Part shown: positions 3,380 to 17,691 of the stretch, piece after piece | Position numbering within the stretch: the first letter of the stretch is position 1 | How the letters are laid out: each line of letters opens with the position of its first letter | Made by a program: the position numbers and the translations under genes | The notes under the pieces: generated by a model | What the model was told of the DNA's origin: nothing | The model's database searches: none | The model's input: the letters and a program-made list of their open reading frames with translations, nothing else | Source of the DNA: a virus | Virus record (IMG/VR): IMGVR_UViG_3300046656_000274 | Coordinates: 1 to 20,218 of that record | DNA length: 20,218 nucleotides | Direction: 5' to 3' (one strand)

Positions 3380-3847
3380 TTACGCTAATTCTGGGAATGT
3401 ATTTAAAAGATGGGATTTAACCTGTTCGTTTTGGGCGCGAACAAGTTTTTGACTAAATTCTTTGTCTGAATTTAATTTACTAACAAGAGCATTCTGGAAC
3501 ACATGGGCATCTTCATTATTAAACCCGTATTCAACAGAGGCAAATCTTTGGATGGGAGTGTCCTTGTAAAACAGAGTGATATTTTGCCCATTTTTGTCAG
3601 ACAGGGCGCTCCAATTGCTTGTAGAAACAATTTTATCGCCTTCCTGCTCATCGTCATACATAGCCACCAAAAACTGTTTTCCATCTTCGTCGTTTTCAAG
3701 TTTCCATAGAGATTCGACAGAAGAGCCATTTAATTGAAAAACATCAAAAGCGACTTTTGTAAATAAATGCTTATTTGTATCATAAGGGACTTTGCCAGAA
3801 TCTTTTGTCATTTCGCTGGCTAATTTAACCCAATCAAGATTTTCCAT
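3380..3847 (-). CDS. Unknown 155-residue protein, first gene of the left block
   Basis: The function is not recognised. The start at 3847 is well supported by AGGAG seven bases upstream. The N-terminus ENLDWVKLASEMTKD resembles the start of the gene that follows it. The middle (LWKLENDEDGKQFLVAMYDD, then ITLFYKDTPIQRFAS) reads as short beta-strands broken by acidic turns, and the C-terminal third is helical. There are no cysteines, signal peptide or membrane segment. It is the first gene after the 153-base spacer and lies 13 nt before the 532-residue gene, so the two are almost certainly co-transcribed and may act together. I have no evidence for a particular activity. Confidence 0.8.
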   Translation of the reverse strand: MENLDWVKLASEMTKDSGKVPYDTNKHLFTKVAFDVFQLNGSSVESLWKLENDEDGKQFLVAMYDDEQEGDKIVSTSNWSALSDKNGQNITLFYKDTPIQRFASVEYGFNNEDAHVFQNALVSKLNSDKEFSQKLVRAQNEQVKSHLLNTFPELA

Positions 3848-4000: not shown

Positions 4001-4468
4001 CTATTTGGATATTAAATATGCTATTATATCCCTACCGTCTTGCTTTACTTGACCATCTACCGTGGCTATTCCTTCATTAATAAGAGTGGATATAAATTTT
4101 TCGAGCTTTTCCATAGCCAAATCACCAAAAACCACCTGTCTTCCCTTTAACATCATGGTGATTTTTGTTTTGAACCCCTTATTTAGGAACTCACGAGCAT
4201 GTGAAATTTTTGTGTTCAGGTCGTTAATATCTATATTCGGGGATAATTGTATTTCTTTAACCTTGTGCGTTCGCTTCTGGGCTCGTTGTTGTCGTTCTTT
4301 TTGTTTTTGTTCGTATTTAAGTTTCCCAGCATCGGCTATTCTATAAATATTACTTTTAGCGTTAATCATTATCAAGTCTTTGCCCGACGCCTTCGCCATT
4401 GATCTTGCCTGTTCTAAACTAACATTTCCTACCAATTTACCATCTTCTCCAATTAAAGTTATATTCAT
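4001..4468 (-). CDS. infC: Translation initiation factor IF-3
   Basis: IF-3 binds the 30S subunit, keeps it apart from 50S and checks the start codon and initiator tRNA. The 155 residues align along their length with bacterial IF-3: an N-domain (LIGEDGKLVGNVSLEQARSM, then KASGKDLIMINAKS), the hallmark YEQKQKERQQ linker helix at 52-61, the KVKEIQLSPNIDINDLNTKI strand-helix at 69-88, AREFLNKG at 91-98 and the GR of the C-domain at 109-110. Compared with the roughly 180-residue bacterial factor it lacks about the first 20 residues, and the usual PPVCR loop is reduced to SNIYR. An in-frame TAA directly precedes the ATG at 4468, so no longer start is possible. AGGAG lies 14 nt upstream, rather far. 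It is the last gene of the block, 21 nt after the sigma-like gene. The gene uses a plain ATG and not the rare AUU of host infC, so the classic IF-3 autoregulation should not apply. Confidence 0.92.
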   Translation of the reverse strand: MNITLIGEDGKLVGNVSLEQARSMAKASGKDLIMINAKSNIYRIADAGKLKYEQKQKERQQRAQKRTHKVKEIQLSPNIDINDLNTKISHAREFLNKGFKTKITMMLKGRQVVFGDLAMEKLEKFISTLINEGIATVDGQVKQDGRDIIAYLISK

Positions 4469-4489
4469 TTATACTGTTTTTTCTCCTTT

Positions 4490-4957
4490 TTATTCTACTT
4501 CTTTATATTCTTCTTGCTTTTCTTTCATTTTAGCCAAGATTTCATTTATTTTCTTATTACTGGCACATAATTTTCTTATCTTTTTGAGAGCTCCACCGTA
4601 TCGTTTCTTGTCGTTATTATAGTCTATATTGCCAGTTAAAGCCTTATGTATTGATGTCTGATGTTTCCCCAAGAGTATAGAAATCTCGTGCTGTGTTTTT
4701 CCTTCAATATAAGTCATTCTAATTACTTCTTTTTGTTTTTTAGTTAAACAACTGTCAATAATAGACATAATTTCCTGTATCAATTCTGTTTTTAATTTTT
4801 GAAACTCTTCCGAAAAAGCATAATTTCCAAAATAAGCAGACATACTCTCTTCATTAGAAAAATTATTAAGCAAACTCGGGTCTATGCTAATTTCTATAAA
4901 ATTATTTGGAGATATATCTAAATTTCCAGAATTGCTATAAGTAAGATGTTTAGACAT
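4490..4957 (-). CDS. Sigma region-4-like helix-turn-helix protein
   Basis: A 155-residue protein whose central part (67-130) matches sigma-70 region 4: a helix LTKKQKEVIRMTYIEGKTQ followed by the HTH HEISILLGKHQTSIHKAL at 90-107, then a basic helix KKIRKL. Region 4 normally contacts the -35 box and the beta-flap of RNA polymerase. There is no region 2 (the -10 reader), so it cannot be a complete sigma factor. It may be a repressor, an anti- or co-sigma protein analogous to T4 gp33, or a transcription activator. The ATG directly abuts the TAG of the primase gene (TAGATG), which suggests translational coupling. The first 50 residues show no known domain. The region-4 resemblance is clear; the role is inference. 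Confidence 0.72.
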   Translation of the reverse strand: MSKHLTYSNSGNLDISPNNFIEISIDPSLLNNFSNEESMSAYFGNYAFSEEFQKLKTELIQEIMSIIDSCLTKKQKEVIRMTYIEGKTQHEISILLGKHQTSIHKALTGNIDYNNDKKRYGGALKKIRKLCASNKKINEILAKMKEKQEEYKEVE

Positions 4958-5692
4958 CTATTTTTTATTGGAATTTGATAAAAACTCCAAGTCTCCGCCC
5001 TTAAATAAATATTCGTCTAAATCTTTGAACCCCATTGGAGTAAATTTACAATCCAAATTAATGCCCGTATTAATAGAATTAAATTTGTCCATAACTCTTT
5101 TGGCACTCGTTCTACCAGCGTTGTCATTGTCAAACAACAAGCATACATTGTCAGTGTATCTTCCCAATATAGACAATTGCTTCATAGAAAACATAGTTCC
5201 ACAAGTAGCCACCACATTTAGCATATCATTTTGGTGGGCAGTTATAACATCAAAATAACCTTCAACCACGAAGACTTGATTTTTCTCGCGTATGGCTGAA
5301 TAGGCTTTATCTAAACCAAATAAGTAAGATGTTTTAGAATAATTGCTATTTCTATATTTTGGTATGCCAAGTTCATCTCGTTTTGTATCATCCAATAAAG
5401 TTCTACAACCTATGGCTATTGACTGCCCCTCTATATTTCTTATTGGAATGACAACTGGAAATAATTTAAAGGGGCTTTTGTCTGCCTGCCATATAATGTT
5501 TTGTTTTTTTAATTCTTCTGGATGAACATATTGAAAGAGGTGGCGCAGGTCTTTTGGAAATGCACCCAATTTATACGATTTAATAGTATTTTCTCTTAAA
5601 CCACGATTTTGTAGATAAGAATAAATATTGCCGTCCTTTAATAAAAGTTCATGACACGCATTGGTTAATTTTTCAAAGAATAAAGAATTCAA
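4958..5692 (-). CDS. dnaG: DnaG-type DNA primase core (TOPRIM), TTG start
   Basis: This enzyme should make RNA primers for lagging-strand synthesis. Residues 26-46 match the DnaG segment YLQNRGLRENTIKSYKLGAF. The TOPRIM metal site follows: VVEGYFDVI with E144, LLFDNDNAG with D188 and D190, and FKDLDEYL with D224 and D226. At 244 residues it is only the catalytic core: the N-terminal CHC2 zinc domain and the C-terminal helicase-binding domain of bacterial DnaG are absent. The start is TTG at 5692. GAGG lies seven bases before it, an in-frame TAG lies just upstream, and no in-frame ATG occurs before residue 157. The gene upstream encodes a zinc-ribbon protein that might replace the missing zinc domain. 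The motifs leave little doubt about the primase core; a stand-alone TOPRIM accessory protein is the only alternative. Confidence 0.88.
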   Translation of the reverse strand: MNSLFFEKLTNACHELLLKDGNIYSYLQNRGLRENTIKSYKLGAFPKDLRHLFQYVHPEELKKQNIIWQADKSPFKLFPVVIPIRNIEGQSIAIGCRTLLDDTKRDELGIPKYRNSNYSKTSYLFGLDKAYSAIREKNQVFVVEGYFDVITAHQNDMLNVVATCGTMFSMKQLSILGRYTDNVCLLFDNDNAGRTSAKRVMDKFNSINTGINLDCKFTPMGFKDLDEYLFKGGDLEFLSNSNKK

Positions 5693-5707: not shown

Positions 5708-6118
5708 TTATTGATTTTTCTTGCTCTTTTTTACTTTCTTTGGCTTATCTGCTGTATTTTCAACTTCCGTATCTTGCTCTTCGCTGTCTATGGCATCGAG
5801 TTTTTTACCAACTTGAAGAATTGCTTGCTTCATGGCACTATGAACTTTAATTTCACCCTTGCATACTCTACAAACAGTATTGTTTTTGTCATCTAATAAT
5901 ACTTCACGATTTGCATTACAATTTTTGCATGCCATCATAAACGCTTTTCGCTCGTCAAGTCTTAATACTTGTCCAAAACTTTTTAGTGTTCTTTTCATTG
6001 GCTCTGAAACGCCCTTAATTGCCTTACCGCACTCTTGACAAATAACTTCGTGTGTTTCGGGGTTTAATAGGGCATTATTTTGTTGAAGACACCCTTTATT
6101 ATCACAATTTATTAACAT
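5708..6118 (-). CDS. Double zinc-ribbon protein, unknown role
   Basis: A 136-residue protein made of two related units. Each has a zinc ribbon: C5/C10 with C27/C30, and C64/C67 with C83/C86. Each ribbon is followed by a helical stretch (VSEPMKRTLKSFGQ and VHSAMKQAILQVGK), so it arose by internal duplication. The tail is acidic and then very basic (KPKKVKKSKKNQ). The gene has the best ribosome binding site in the window (AAGGAGGAT, four bases before ATG). It sits 15 nt before the primase core and 33 nt after recA. The ribbons are C-x2-C type and not the CHC2 type of DnaG. A nucleic-acid-binding partner of primase or polymerase is plausible from context but not shown by the sequence. Confidence 0.75.
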   Translation of the reverse strand: MLINCDNKGCLQQNNALLNPETHEVICQECGKAIKGVSEPMKRTLKSFGQVLRLDERKAFMMACKNCNANREVLLDDKNNTVCRVCKGEIKVHSAMKQAILQVGKKLDAIDSEEQDTEVENTADKPKKVKKSKKNQ

Positions 6119-6151: not shown

Positions 6152-7237
6152 TTAACTATCATTTTCCTCTACTGCGACACTAATATTATTTGCTTTTGCT
6201 TCCTTAACTCTTTCAAGAACCGATAATTGGAGTTTTTCATCTAATAGGGCATCCGCTATTGCATCTTTGCCATTATACTTGACGCCATCCAATTCATAGG
6301 TTTTATTATTTGGGCGTTGAATTACACCATATCTACAACCTAACTCGCGCATTTCTACATTCTTGTGAGTTATTCCTTTTGCAAAATCTATTGCAACTTC
6401 GGCAGTTCTAAAAGGTGGTGCTTTTTTATTTTTATCTATACGCGCCTTAATGTGCAAACCAGAAGTTTGCCCATCTTCTCCTTCAATTTTCGAGTCCTTT
6501 CCTGCCATCTTTGCTAAATGAACCATCTGCGCACAAGCATGTTTCAGTGTTGCGCCGCCTGGACTTTCTTCTGGGTTTCCATACATTACGCCAGGCTTCA
6601 TTCTTAATTGATTTATACATATTAAACTAACACCAGTTTGAGATAGGATCGGGGTTATTTTTCTCAATTCTGGCGGTAAAAATCTCGCCATCAATGCCAT
6701 ATTTGCTTTGCCTACCTCACTCGTTTCTTCTTGCGGTGGTTGCATTGCCGCGATACTATCTATAACTATTAGCCCTAAACCAGTTCCGCCAGTTTCAAGC
6801 TCCAAATCTAATATGCCCTTTTTAACCTTGGGCGATCCAGGCTTTGCACCAGGAGCACCAACAAGACGCTCGAACACCTTTATACCACTATTTTCACGAT
6901 AAACTAAAAGTCTATCTAAATCAACTCCCAATCCTCTTGTCCAATTAGCGTCAAAAGTAAATTCACAATCTATGAACATTGCCCAATTATTTGGATCTTT
7001 CTTTTGCCATTCCGCTATTGTTGTCAAACTTAAAAATGTTTTTCCACTACTCTCGAACCCAGCATATTGAATGACATGTCCTCGAGGAATACCCCAAATA
7101 CCCAAAGCGTCGTCCAACAAATAACTGCCCGTGCTTATAACATCACTATAAGTGGTCATGCTTTCATTTCCAGCAAAAAGTCCTTCATCGCCGTGTTGCT
7201 TTTCTATCTGATCCCATATTTGTTGCATTTTCTTCAT
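6152..7237 (-). CDS. recA: RecA/UvsX-family recombinase
   Basis: RecA forms filaments on single-stranded DNA and carries out strand exchange, which in phages feeds recombination-dependent replication and repair. Seen here: Walker A GFESSGKT at 60-67, the catalytic E92 in FIDCE, Walker B LIVID at 156-160, and the L2 DNA-binding segment INQLRMKPGVMYGNPEESPG at 208-227 with its conserved glutamine. The length, 361 residues, is normal. Between E92 and the Walker B aspartate it is about 20 residues longer than E. coli RecA; the extra piece is rich in Gly, Pro and Lys (GAPGAKPGSPKVKKG). The ATG overlaps the dnaJ stop by one base (TAATG) behind AAGGAG. SSB-like and UvsY-like genes nearby complete the usual recombinase set. 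The sequence looks closer to bacterial RecA than to T4 UvsX. Confidence 0.95.
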   Translation of the reverse strand: MKKMQQIWDQIEKQHGDEGLFAGNESMTTYSDVISTGSYLLDDALGIWGIPRGHVIQYAGFESSGKTFLSLTTIAEWQKKDPNNWAMFIDCEFTFDANWTRGLGVDLDRLLVYRENSGIKVFERLVGAPGAKPGSPKVKKGILDLELETGGTGLGLIVIDSIAAMQPPQEETSEVGKANMALMARFLPPELRKITPILSQTGVSLICINQLRMKPGVMYGNPEESPGGATLKHACAQMVHLAKMAGKDSKIEGEDGQTSGLHIKARIDKNKKAPPFRTAEVAIDFAKGITHKNVEMRELGCRYGVIQRPNNKTYELDGVKYNGKDAIADALLDEKLQLSVLERVKEAKANNISVAVEENDS

Positions 7238-8265
7238 TAATTTTTCTCCTTAATTTTCATTAATAACTCTTTTTCTTCGTCTGATATTTGTTTAGGGATA
7301 TTTATTTTTACATTTACTAAATGATCTCCCCTAACATGATCTTTAAAAATACCTTTATTTTTTATTTTAATAATATTATTTGGTTGGGTGCCTGGTGGAA
7401 TATTTAGTTTCTCAACGCCATGAGTAGTTTCCACATCAATAGCTGTTCCCAAAATTGCATCTAAATAACTAATTGTTTCCTCGCTTTGTATATTTACTCC
7501 CGCTCTTTTAAATTTAGGGTGGGGTCGTATAACTAACGCTATATATAGGTCTCCATTTTCTCCACCATATTCGCTTGGCAAACCTTTTCCAGAAAGTCGC
7601 ATGGTGGTGTTTTCGTCTATACCAGCAGGGATAGTTATTTTTATATTATCCTCTTTACTAATTTCTCCGTTTCCATTACAAGATTGGCATTTGTCTATAA
7701 TTTGAAAACCACGCCCACCACAGCTATTACAACTATTTACAACTTGCATGAAGCCCTGTTTATAGCCTATTTTGCCCGAACCATTACAGACATTACAGGT
7801 TTTTACTGAATTGTCGTCTTTTGCCCCTTTACCATTACAATTTTTGCAAACTGCTGGATAATACATTTTGAAGGTTTTTACACTGCCCTTCACGGCTTCC
7901 ATGAAATTTATTGTTATTGTTTTCTTTAAGTCTTCACCGCGAACTTTTCTTGATCTTGCCGAACCAAAAATATCACCAAAATCAAAACCCCCGCCAAAAC
8001 CCATATTTCTTAAAATTTCATCAAAATTACTTGCCTGTGCTGTATTTTTTGGATTTGTGTTTCCGTATAAGTCATATTGTTTTCGTTTATCCGCATCAGA
8101 TAAAACTTCGTATGCAGCAGAGATTTCTTTAAACTTTTCTTCTGCTACTTTATTTCCTTGGTTCTTGTCGGGATGGTACTCCATTGCAAGTTTTCTATAA
8201 GCATTTTTTATTTCTTTATCATTTGCGGTTTTCTCTACCCCAAGAACTTTATATAAGTCGTTCAT
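7237..8265 (-). CDS. dnaJ: Chaperone DnaJ (type I, Hsp40)
   Basis: DnaJ delivers clients to Hsp70 (DnaK) and stimulates its ATPase. All class-A parts are present in 342 residues: J-domain with HPD at 31-33, a Gly/Phe segment at about 88-101, four CxxCxGxG zinc motifs (C140, C157, C179, C193), and the C-terminal client-binding domains with [15 protein letters not shown]. No dnaK or grpE is seen in the window, so it should work with host DnaK. It is embedded between ruvC (4-nt ATGA overlap) and recA (1-nt overlap), within the DNA-processing genes. That favours a role in loading or taking apart replication or recombination complexes, as host DnaJ does for lambda and P1, but capsid folding is equally possible. 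Confidence 0.95.
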
Positions 8266-14364: not shown

Positions 14365-14703
14365 TTATAACTCTATTTCTATTTCCAGTGTATCTGAAAT
14401 CCATTGAGCAAGTTTTTCCTCTATTGTGTTTTTCCAATTAATATCATCTTTCGGAACACACAATTTTAACAATCTTGTGTTGGCTCTTACTTCGATTTTA
14501 GTATTTTCATCTTTGCCTATCTTAACTAACATATTTGATTTAAATAATGTTAGGGCACTTGATAGGCTGCCTTGTGCCCCAAAAGATAGAGCCATGCCTT
14601 CAATCAAATCCGAATTAATGCGACAAGGTAAATCATACTCAAATGAAGAACATTTATCACAACAAAATGATTGCTTTATAGAAACTATATCTTTAAAAAA
14701 CAT
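14365..14703 (-). CDS. Small protein with Cys cluster, unknown
   Basis: A 112-residue protein of unknown function. The N-terminal part has CCDKC at 14-18 and another cysteine at 27 (DLPCRIN), which could bind zinc or be structural. The middle (MALSFGAQGSLSSALTLFKS) is helical with small residues, and the end is acidic with W-I-S-D. It overlaps the previous gene by one base (TAATG) and lies three bases before the DNA polymerase gene. Both small genes between trigger factor and polymerase are clearly part of the same transcript. I see no homology to name. Confidence 0.65.
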   Translation of the reverse strand: MFFKDIVSIKQSFCCDKCSSFEYDLPCRINSDLIEGMALSFGAQGSLSSALTLFKSNMLVKIGKDENTKIEVRANTRLLKLCVPKDDINWKNTIEEKLAQWISDTLEIEIEL

Positions 14704-14921
14704 TATTTCTTAATGAAGATAGACAAACCTACATCAACCTCGCCTACTTGGTGATCCAATAAGGCTTTCATAACATCACCCATATCACAATCTGCCGCGG
14801 ACACTTCATCGACTACGGCTTCCAGCACTAATTTGAGTTTTTCTGTATCTTTTGCCTTTTTAACTGAAAAGTTCAAAATTTTAAATCCCGCTATTGATTG
14901 CTTCTTGCTGTTTTCTTCCAT
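14703..14921 (-). CDS. Small acidic protein, unknown
   Basis: A 72-residue protein. The frame is open back to an ATG at 14948, but AAGGAG lies just before the ATG at 14921, and starting there avoids an overlap with the trigger factor gene, so 14921 is preferred. The sequence alternates strand-like and helical parts (GFKILNFSVKKAKDTEKLKL then LEAVVDEVSAAD) and ends in VGEVDVGLSIFIKK. The size and pattern would suit a small alpha/beta domain. Nothing identifies its role; it is encoded between trigger factor and a Cys-containing protein, ten bases after the former. Confidence 0.65.
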   Translation of the reverse strand: MEENSKKQSIAGFKILNFSVKKAKDTEKLKLVLEAVVDEVSAADCDMGDVMKALLDHQVGEVDVGLSIFIKK

Positions 14922-14931
14922 TTCTTTCTCC

Positions 14932-16185
14932 TTAATCTTTTTTCGCACTATTTATTATAAAATCTACTACTTTTTGGTTTCTCAAAATGCCCATAAAAGC
15001 ATCCATTTGATTTGAATTATATAAATTACTAACCAAATCGTCTTTATTTATATTGTTTTGATTAGCATAATTATTTAATAACTTGTCTAATTCATCTGGT
15101 GTTATTTCTATTTCGCTTTCCGCCTCATAAATGTTGTCTAATAATATTGCTCTTTTAACATTTGATCTTGCTACACCAGTCGTGGAGTTGATTGCCTGTT
15201 CAGTTAAATTTTTATTATTTCCGACGAGCCTTTTTACTTCATTCTCTATCATTGATTTTGGAACTTCAAATGTATTCAGTTCTAATAATTTTGATAGTAT
15301 CTGTCCTTCTAAATTATTTTTGGTGATTTTGTCTATATAATCACCTACATCTAAATTAATCTTGTCTAACATTTCTTCTACTGATGAATAACCAGCCATT
15401 AGTGCCAAATCATTATCCACTTCTGCCAAGTTTGTCTCTACTATCGAGTGTAATTTGATTTTAAAAGTTGCTTCTTTTCCTGCCAAGTTGGGGGCATTAT
15501 AACTAACTGGAAATACAATTTTTATATTTCTTTCTTCATTAACCAACATTCCAACTATCTGATCTTCAAATCCAGCGACAAACTTGTTATTTCCTAACTT
15601 ATCTAATGAATATCCATTTGCTTTTCCACCTTCAAATTGAACTCCGTCAATAAAACCTTCAAAATCTATAACTATTGCGTCCCCTAATTGAGCTGGTCGT
15701 TCAGTTATTTGTTTTCTTTCGGCAAATTGTGTTCTGTGTTCTAATAGTTTATTTTGAACTAACTTTTCCTTGTCATATGTCGGAACCTTTAATTCAAGAC
15801 CCTTATAACCTTCTGGTTTAAATTTTGGTAGAACTTCAACCAATAGACTGACAAAATAAGAATTGTCTGGGTTAAATTTTCCTACGGTTTCATTGCTGTT
15901 TTCAAAATTTGGAGCACCTAATGGGTTTATATTAAAATCTCTTAATGCCTTTGTATAAAATTCAGATATAATTCCTTGTGCTACTAAATTTTTTGCCTTG
16001 TGTCCATAAAACTGCTTTAATACTTTTGTTGATGCCTTGCCTTTTCTAAAACCATTTAAATTAGTTTCTTTTTTTATGCCATTAAAAAATTCATTAAATT
16101 TCTTATCCACACTATTTGATGAAACAAAAATTGATATTCTTTTTTGAACTTGACTTAAATCTTCAACATTTACTGTATCTTCCAT
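14932..16185 (-). CDS. tig: Trigger factor (ribosome-associated chaperone / prolyl isomerase)
   Basis: Trigger factor docks at the ribosome exit tunnel and shields new chains; it also carries a prolyl cis-trans isomerase domain. All three domains are present in 417 residues (432 in E. coli). The N-terminal ribosome-binding domain carries the signature GFRKGK at 45-50. The FKBP-like domain at about 160-245 includes GDAIVIDFEGFIDGVQFEGG, VAGFEDQIVGM and PVSYNAPNLAGKEATFKIKL. The C-terminal helical domain starts near 255. The proline that usually follows GFRxGKxP is missing (GKAST). The start follows a TAGGAG site in which the previous gene's stop is embedded. It could help fold capsid proteins made in bulk. 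Identification is secure from the signature and full-length domain order. Confidence 0.96.
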   Translation of the reverse strand: MEDTVNVEDLSQVQKRISIFVSSNSVDKKFNEFFNGIKKETNLNGFRKGKASTKVLKQFYGHKAKNLVAQGIISEFYTKALRDFNINPLGAPNFENSNETVGKFNPDNSYFVSLLVEVLPKFKPEGYKGLELKVPTYDKEKLVQNKLLEHRTQFAERKQITERPAQLGDAIVIDFEGFIDGVQFEGGKANGYSLDKLGNNKFVAGFEDQIVGMLVNEERNIKIVFPVSYNAPNLAGKEATFKIKLHSIVETNLAEVDNDLALMAGYSSVEEMLDKINLDVGDYIDKITKNNLEGQILSKLLELNTFEVPKSMIENEVKRLVGNNKNLTEQAINSTTGVARSNVKRAILLDNIYEAESEIEITPDELDKLLNNYANQNNINKDDLVSNLYNSNQMDAFMGILRNQKVVDFIINSAKKD

Positions 16186-16863: not shown

Positions 16864-17691
16864 TTATTTGCCCATTATCTCCATAAATTTTTTGTCATCT
16901 TTTAATTTCTTTAATTTAGAGTTGGCACTTGAATTTGACATCCCTATTTCTTTGGCTGCACGGCTGACTGAATAATCCTTCATAACGATCAAGTTTAATA
17001 ATTTTGCTACGCTTGGATCACTTTCTGCGATCCATTCTGATATGTCGTGATCTAAAATTATACCATTTTCATCGGCATTACTTTTATTATCAACAAAAGA
17101 ACTAAAATCCCCATCTTCACTGCCGTCCGTTGGATCTACTGGATGATAATAAGCATCAAGATATACTTCCGAAAAACCCAATGAAACTTTTCTGGCACTG
17201 GTTATTGAGGCATTACACTTTTCGCAAATTCTATCAGATGTGTTTTCTTCATCTGACAAAACTAAATTAAAAGAATTTCCACAACCACATAGATAATTAT
17301 AAGAATTTATTTTTAAGAGTGTAGCGTTTTTGGAAGAATGGCTTTGATCTCTAATTTCGTTTATTAACCTTCTATTAACACGCATTTGAATAAAAGTAGA
17401 TAGTTTAACATTTCTTCTTGGATCGAACTTTGGTGTTCCTTCTATGATGCGCATTGATATATGTTGTTTTGTATCTTCTGGACTAAATCCTTTAAGTTTG
17501 TATTTAGAAGCCAAGAAGCCTACTAGTTTATTTAATTTTTTAATAACCTCGTCATATCCTTTTCCAGTTTTAGTATTGACATACATTTCCGTGTCATATA
17601 CCTGAACTTTTCCAGAAAATCCTACATATTCTTTTGTCTTTGGGTCTAAAAATATTTCTAACTCTTCTTTATTGCTATTAATTGTTCTCAT
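16864..17691 (-). CDS. gp55-like phage sigma factor with inserted zinc ribbon
   Basis: The protein should direct RNA polymerase to phage promoters. Residues about 50-117 match sigma-70 region 2, ending in KFDPRRNVKLSTFIQMRVNR then RLINEIRDQS, the core-binding and -10-reading helices. Residues about 228-268 form a region-4-like HTH (SVSRAAKEIGMSNSSANSKL). Between them lies a zinc ribbon (C135-x-C137 and C156-x2-C159), which is not part of ordinary sigma factors, and an acidic linker rich in Asp and Ser. T4 gp55, the late sigma factor, is also a reduced region-2 protein, so a late-gene role is a fair guess. The start at 17691 is seven bases after the nuclease gene with a TAGGAG site. The sigma call is firm; the timing is inference. 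Confidence 0.85.
   Translation of the reverse strand: MRTINSNKEELEIFLDPKTKEYVGFSGKVQVYDTEMYVNTKTGKGYDEVIKKLNKLVGFLASKYKLKGFSPEDTKQHISMRIIEGTPKFDPRRNVKLSTFIQMRVNRRLINEIRDQSHSSKNATLLKINSYNYLCGCGNSFNLVLSDEENTSDRICEKCNASITSARKVSLGFSEVYLDAYYHPVDPTDGSEDGDFSSFVDNKSNADENGIILDHDISEWIAESDPSVAKLLNLIVMKDYSVSRAAKEIGMSNSSANSKLKKLKDDKKFMEIMGK

Follow-up and report, generated by a model that had tools for sequence, protein, structure and literature searches.

A structurally trimmed translation initiation factor IF-3 in a lineage of uncultured phages

The IF-3 gene and its surroundings

The DNA analysed here (the window) is a stretch of 20,218 nucleotides from an IMG/VR virus record, and it carries an infC-like gene for translation initiation factor IF-3 (IF3). 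The reading frame is intact on the minus strand, running from an ATG at 4468 to a stop at 4001. The features of this locus, together with two chaperone genes elsewhere in the window, are as follows.

14932..16185, minus strand: trigger factor, a nascent-chain chaperone (NCBIfam tig equivalog, 297 bits, cut-off 180)
7237..8265, minus strand: DnaJ co-chaperone (three Pfam DnaJ domains above cut-off)
5708..6118, minus strand: zinc-ribbon protein of the IF3 operon (Zn_Ribbon_TF, 25.2 bits, below the cut-off of 29; synteny)
4958..5692, minus strand: Toprim/DnaG-type primase core of the IF3 operon (Pfam Toprim_2 and DNAG_N; synteny)
4490..4957, minus strand: sigma-70 region-4-like gene directly upstream of IF3 (Pfam Sigma70_r4_2, 27.5 bits, cut-off 25.7; synteny in 7/7 phages)
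4469..4489, minus strand: intergenic gap of 21 nt ahead of IF3, carrying a Shine-Dalgarno-like AAGGAG at a long spacing of 14 nt from the ATG
4001..4468, minus strand: infC-like gene, translation initiation factor IF-3, 155 aa (Pfam, NCBIfam and PHROG profiles above cut-off)
3380..3847, minus strand: conserved 155-aa phage protein of unassigned function, downstream of IF3 and kept in relatives

Further genes in the window encode RecA, a RuvC-like resolvase, an ssb-like protein, a DnaE polymerase, a sigma-region-2 protein and an exonuclease, and no tRNA genes were found in it. The long spacing before the IF3 start codon was considered as a conserved control signal and rejected, since both spacing and overlap differ among the relatives.

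Regions 4 (4490-4957, minus strand) and 2 (16864-17691, minus strand) of sigma-70 are encoded by separate genes about 12 kb apart, an arrangement also found in a relative, G003, and the two products possibly form a two-piece phage sigma factor. The DnaG-type Toprim core (4958-5692) has no zinc domain and adjoins the separate zinc-ribbon gene (5708-6118), and an ORF of G003 (L024 17922-18551) resembles the zinc-binding part of DnaG; the primase is possibly split over several genes. An 81-aa ORF adjoining the trigger factor gene (14703-14948, minus strand) matches YqeY weakly (18.6 bits, below the cut-off of 27) and is kept in G003.

The identity of the window gene as IF3 is confirmed by its sequence and its predicted fold. 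The Pfam profiles IF3_N (51.2 bits, cut-off 26.9) and IF3_C (79.8 bits, cut-off 34.8, E 1.5e-22) matched in the correct order, the NCBIfam infC equivalog TIGR00168 scored 102.4 bits (cut-off 60), and PHROG 9787, 'translation initiation factor', scored 94 bits over residues 3-152. Using phmmer, the same residues aligned with solved IF3 chains at a best E of 1.2e-24. A preliminary description had placed an IF-3 gene at exactly these coordinates, aligning over nearly its whole length with bacterial IF-3, with the YEQ linker helix and both domains, and had named the lack of an IF3_C profile match as one result that would refute it; the match was found and the other points were borne out, the strand being minus, the helix reading KLKYEQKQKERQQRAQKR, and the N-terminal tail of bacterial IF3 being absent from the 155-aa protein. 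The window copy does not match the PROSITE IF3 signature, departing from it at the [FY] position (D-A-G-K); since roughly half of the bacterial copies in the comparison do not match it either, the signature does not discriminate.

A structure model was obtained with AlphaFold from an alignment of 14 sequences, with a mean pLDDT of 84.8 and a pTM of 0.53, the latter a value to be expected when a flexible linker joins two domains. In this model the N domain (residues 1-47) is joined by a linker helix (about 47-66) to the C domain (68-155). The C domain superimposed on 1tig over 86 residues at 1.3 A, and the N domain on 1tif over 63 residues at 1.5 A.

Relatives and their gene content

Scans of viral contigs revealed six other contigs with an IF3 that is 45-56% identical to the window copy. 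The gene order zinc-ribbon, primase, sigma-region-4-like, IF3 is common to all seven phages, and the 155-aa protein directly follows IF3 in all but one of them (L044), in which one gene lies between. No usable pattern emerged from a broad profile scan with 11 mixed IF3s, and a scan of viral contigs for trigger factor found nothing. One relative, the 162-kb G003, has genes for terminase, portal, tail sheath and baseplate, which identifies the lineage as a contractile-tailed phage. The G003 portal protein (1413 aa, L026 14492-18733) is interrupted by a LAGLIDADG domain, a candidate intein.

In addition to trigger factor and DnaJ, this relative has genes for EF-Ts and a CCA-enzyme-like protein, which makes it likely that IF3 belongs to a larger expression kit; the trigger factor, we infer, is part of that kit as well. 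The EF-Ts gene (L024 6449-7042) scored 131.8 bits against Pfam EF_TS; it had no matching PHROG family, and among phage records only one clear huge phage (LR756511, 595 kb) gave a distant match. The CCA-enzyme-like nucleotidyltransferase lies at L026 6398-7204, and G003 also encodes a cold-shock protein (L028 18222-18467), a ClpP-like protease, a cysteine desulfurase-like enzyme and an M16 peptidase (L024 12057-12644, 9419-10537 and 136-1329, respectively). Two of the seven phages have an ORF resembling a trypsin-like serine protease between DnaJ and RecA (L016 4527-5213; L043 1528-2313); there is none at this junction in the window.

Comparison with known IF-3 proteins

Phage-borne IF3 is already known; what is new here is a separate branch with clade-specific trimming. 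IF-3 has been described from phage CBB, and homologues of it from GAP32, 121Q, PBECO4 and RaK2 (PMC5259590); it is also on record for Atu_ph07 (PMC7824862) and, alongside IF1 and ribosomal proteins, for huge phages (PMC7162821). The preliminary description had called IF-3 rare in phages, which is only partly right, as the RaK2/121Q/GAP32/CBB-type phages, Atu_ph07, Phosso, Vibrio 2.275.O and several huge phages all carry it. No experimental test of any phage IF3 was found in the literature searched, coverage of which was incomplete. With the Vibrio 2.275.O IF3 as query, 71 phage records were matched, some such matches being bacterial contigs labelled as phage. In a number of 'phage' records (L010, L011, L003, L012, L013, L015, L064 and L066-L068) IF3 adjoins the gene for L35 and/or L20, and in L010 and L011 thrS also lies beside it; records with an IF3 flanked in this way are probably mislabelled pieces of bacterial chromosomes.

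The RaK2/121Q/GAP32/CBB-type jumbo phages and Vibrio 2.275.O resemble the window clade in having an intact, phage-borne IF3 gene, but their gene neighbourhoods differ: IF3 adjoins a ClpS-like gene in GAP32, XaC1 and 121Q, and S21 and L7/L12-like genes in Vibrio 2.275.O, whereas in the window clade it adjoins primase and sigma genes. The huge phages, Atu_ph07 and Phosso likewise have large genomes in which IF3 is accompanied by further expression genes (PMC7162821, PMC7824862), but their IF3s keep the N-terminal tail and a Pro-containing hairpin, and the neighbours in Atu_ph07 and Phosso are a Clp ATPase subunit and a topoisomerase.

In a tree of 50 rows, comprising bacterial and phage copies, the seven IF3 copies grouped as one long-stemmed clade (support 100/99), separate from the RaK2-type copies, which with that of Vibrio 2.275.O formed a branch of their own (100/100), and from those of Atu_ph07, Phosso and the huge phages. 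AU tests did not reject joining the window clade with the RaK2-type IF3s (p 0.468), a Bacillota-like source of the clade IF3 (p 0.294), or a single origin of all phage copies (p 0.217). As judged from the sequences, the clade IF3 would be a deeply separated, structurally trimmed branch among phage-borne IF3s in the free tree, with joint origins left unrejected by the AU tests. An affinity with Margulisbacteria/WOR-1 IF3 reached only 83/88 in the tree, from rows that had been picked for matching peptide patterns of the query, and is not claimed.

Bacterial IF3 (InfC, for example of E. coli, Geobacillus and Thermus) shares with the clade both domains, the helical linker and the main 30S-facing residues, at about 30-38% identity. 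The N-terminal tail (NxxI..xVR) is missing from 7/7 phage copies, which begin at the first beta strand, and the xPPVC (Pro-Pro-Val-Cys) hairpin of the N domain, whose Pro motif is present in the compared bacterial copies, is lost in 7/7 and 2 residues shorter. Tail and hairpin are usual in IF3 although not strictly defining. GRQ (GRH in 1/7) replaces the GRE of most bacterial copies, and 2 extra residues follow the last C-domain helix in 7/7. This clade-wide loss of tail and hairpin loop suggests that N-domain contacts are altered while the C domain is intact.

Proposed role on host ribosomes

The C domain of IF3 carried the main activities in earlier work. Between the IF3 copies, nucleotides diverge least at codon position 2 (0.22-0.32) and most at position 3 (0.56-0.72), a pattern that fits purifying selection on the protein. 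The residues K72, Y75, D106, K110, R133 and G167 (E. coli numbering) are kept in 7/7 phages, and R168 is basic in 6/7; the R99 position is Ser in the window IF3 and is variable also among the sampled bacteria. In 30S complexes of Thermus, IF3 touches h23, h24, h44 and h45 with its linker and C domain, arginines of the C domain extend to the start codon, and the N domain lies near uS11 and then on the elbow of the initiator tRNA; Y75 is a fidelity residue that contacts the platform (PMC5037330). Numbering in that paper equals our PDB-derived alignment plus 1, judging from Arg91/123/125/159 against 90/122/124/158. As the linker and C-domain contact residues are mostly conserved and the trimming falls in the N domain, most of the surface on the decoding side is retained, and it is chiefly the N domain that has changed.

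With many 30S-facing residues conserved, action of the phage protein on host 30S subunits is plausible. We consider it probable that this is a working two-domain IF3 that acts on the host 30S and, during infection, supplements host IF3 or takes its place in part. Made during infection, it would bind the platform and P site as bacterial IF3 does, keep the ribosomal subunits apart, check the initiator tRNA and the start codon, and help to recycle ribosomes. The benefit to the phage may be a sustained capacity for initiation, as part of the expression kit.

The alternative that fares best, though we think it unlikely, is that remodelling of the N domain has made the factor less discriminating or changed its preference, with the result that initiation occurs more often on phage messages than on those of the host; a shift toward phage messages had also been raised in the preliminary description. 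N-domain changes specific to the clade, the conserved link with the sigma-region-4-like gene, and a published model in which translation proteins of huge phages redirect host translation (PMC7162821) all speak for it. However, the fidelity-linked Y75 and R133 are retained, and phage messages look ordinary: Shine-Dalgarno sites precede 16/26 genes in the window against a background of 20%, and 51% of genes in G003 against 8%, and start codons in both are mostly ATG. With such sites and starts, the sequence gives no hint that a special initiation preference is needed. Slightly less likely again is the broader proposal that an IF3 lineage with a rebuilt N domain (no tail, no Pro-Pro hairpin) changes start-site selection on host ribosomes within a kit of two-piece sigma factor, trigger factor, DnaJ and, in the relative, EF-Ts. 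The branch would matter more if the trimmed N domain did alter the choice of start codon or message, and it bears on the question of whether the translation factors of phages redirect the host's ribosomes or just add to their capacity. Seven uncultured phages with fixed IF3 neighbours form a natural series in which the parts of IF3 that a phage requires could be tested.

It is quite improbable that the protein instead occupies the 30S as an inhibitor and blocks host initiation as a form of shut-off. A competitor deprived of normal N-domain contacts might stall 30S subunits, but the C domain and the two-domain architecture are intact under purifying selection, and the lineage encodes pro-translation factors such as EF-Ts. 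Lastly, a bacterial infC on a mis-binned chromosomal contig is scarcely credible: several public 'phage' IF3 records do carry thrS and/or L35/L20 beside infC, but the L35/L20 genes (rpmI/rplT), which flank infC in many bacteria, are present in none of the seven IF3 loci of the clade, where the gene lies outside any thrS-infC-rpmI-rplT operon, and the phage replication genes next to it and the virion genes of G003 refute a bacterial-chromosome origin of the window, so that the IF-3 of this virus record stands as phage-encoded, as first described.
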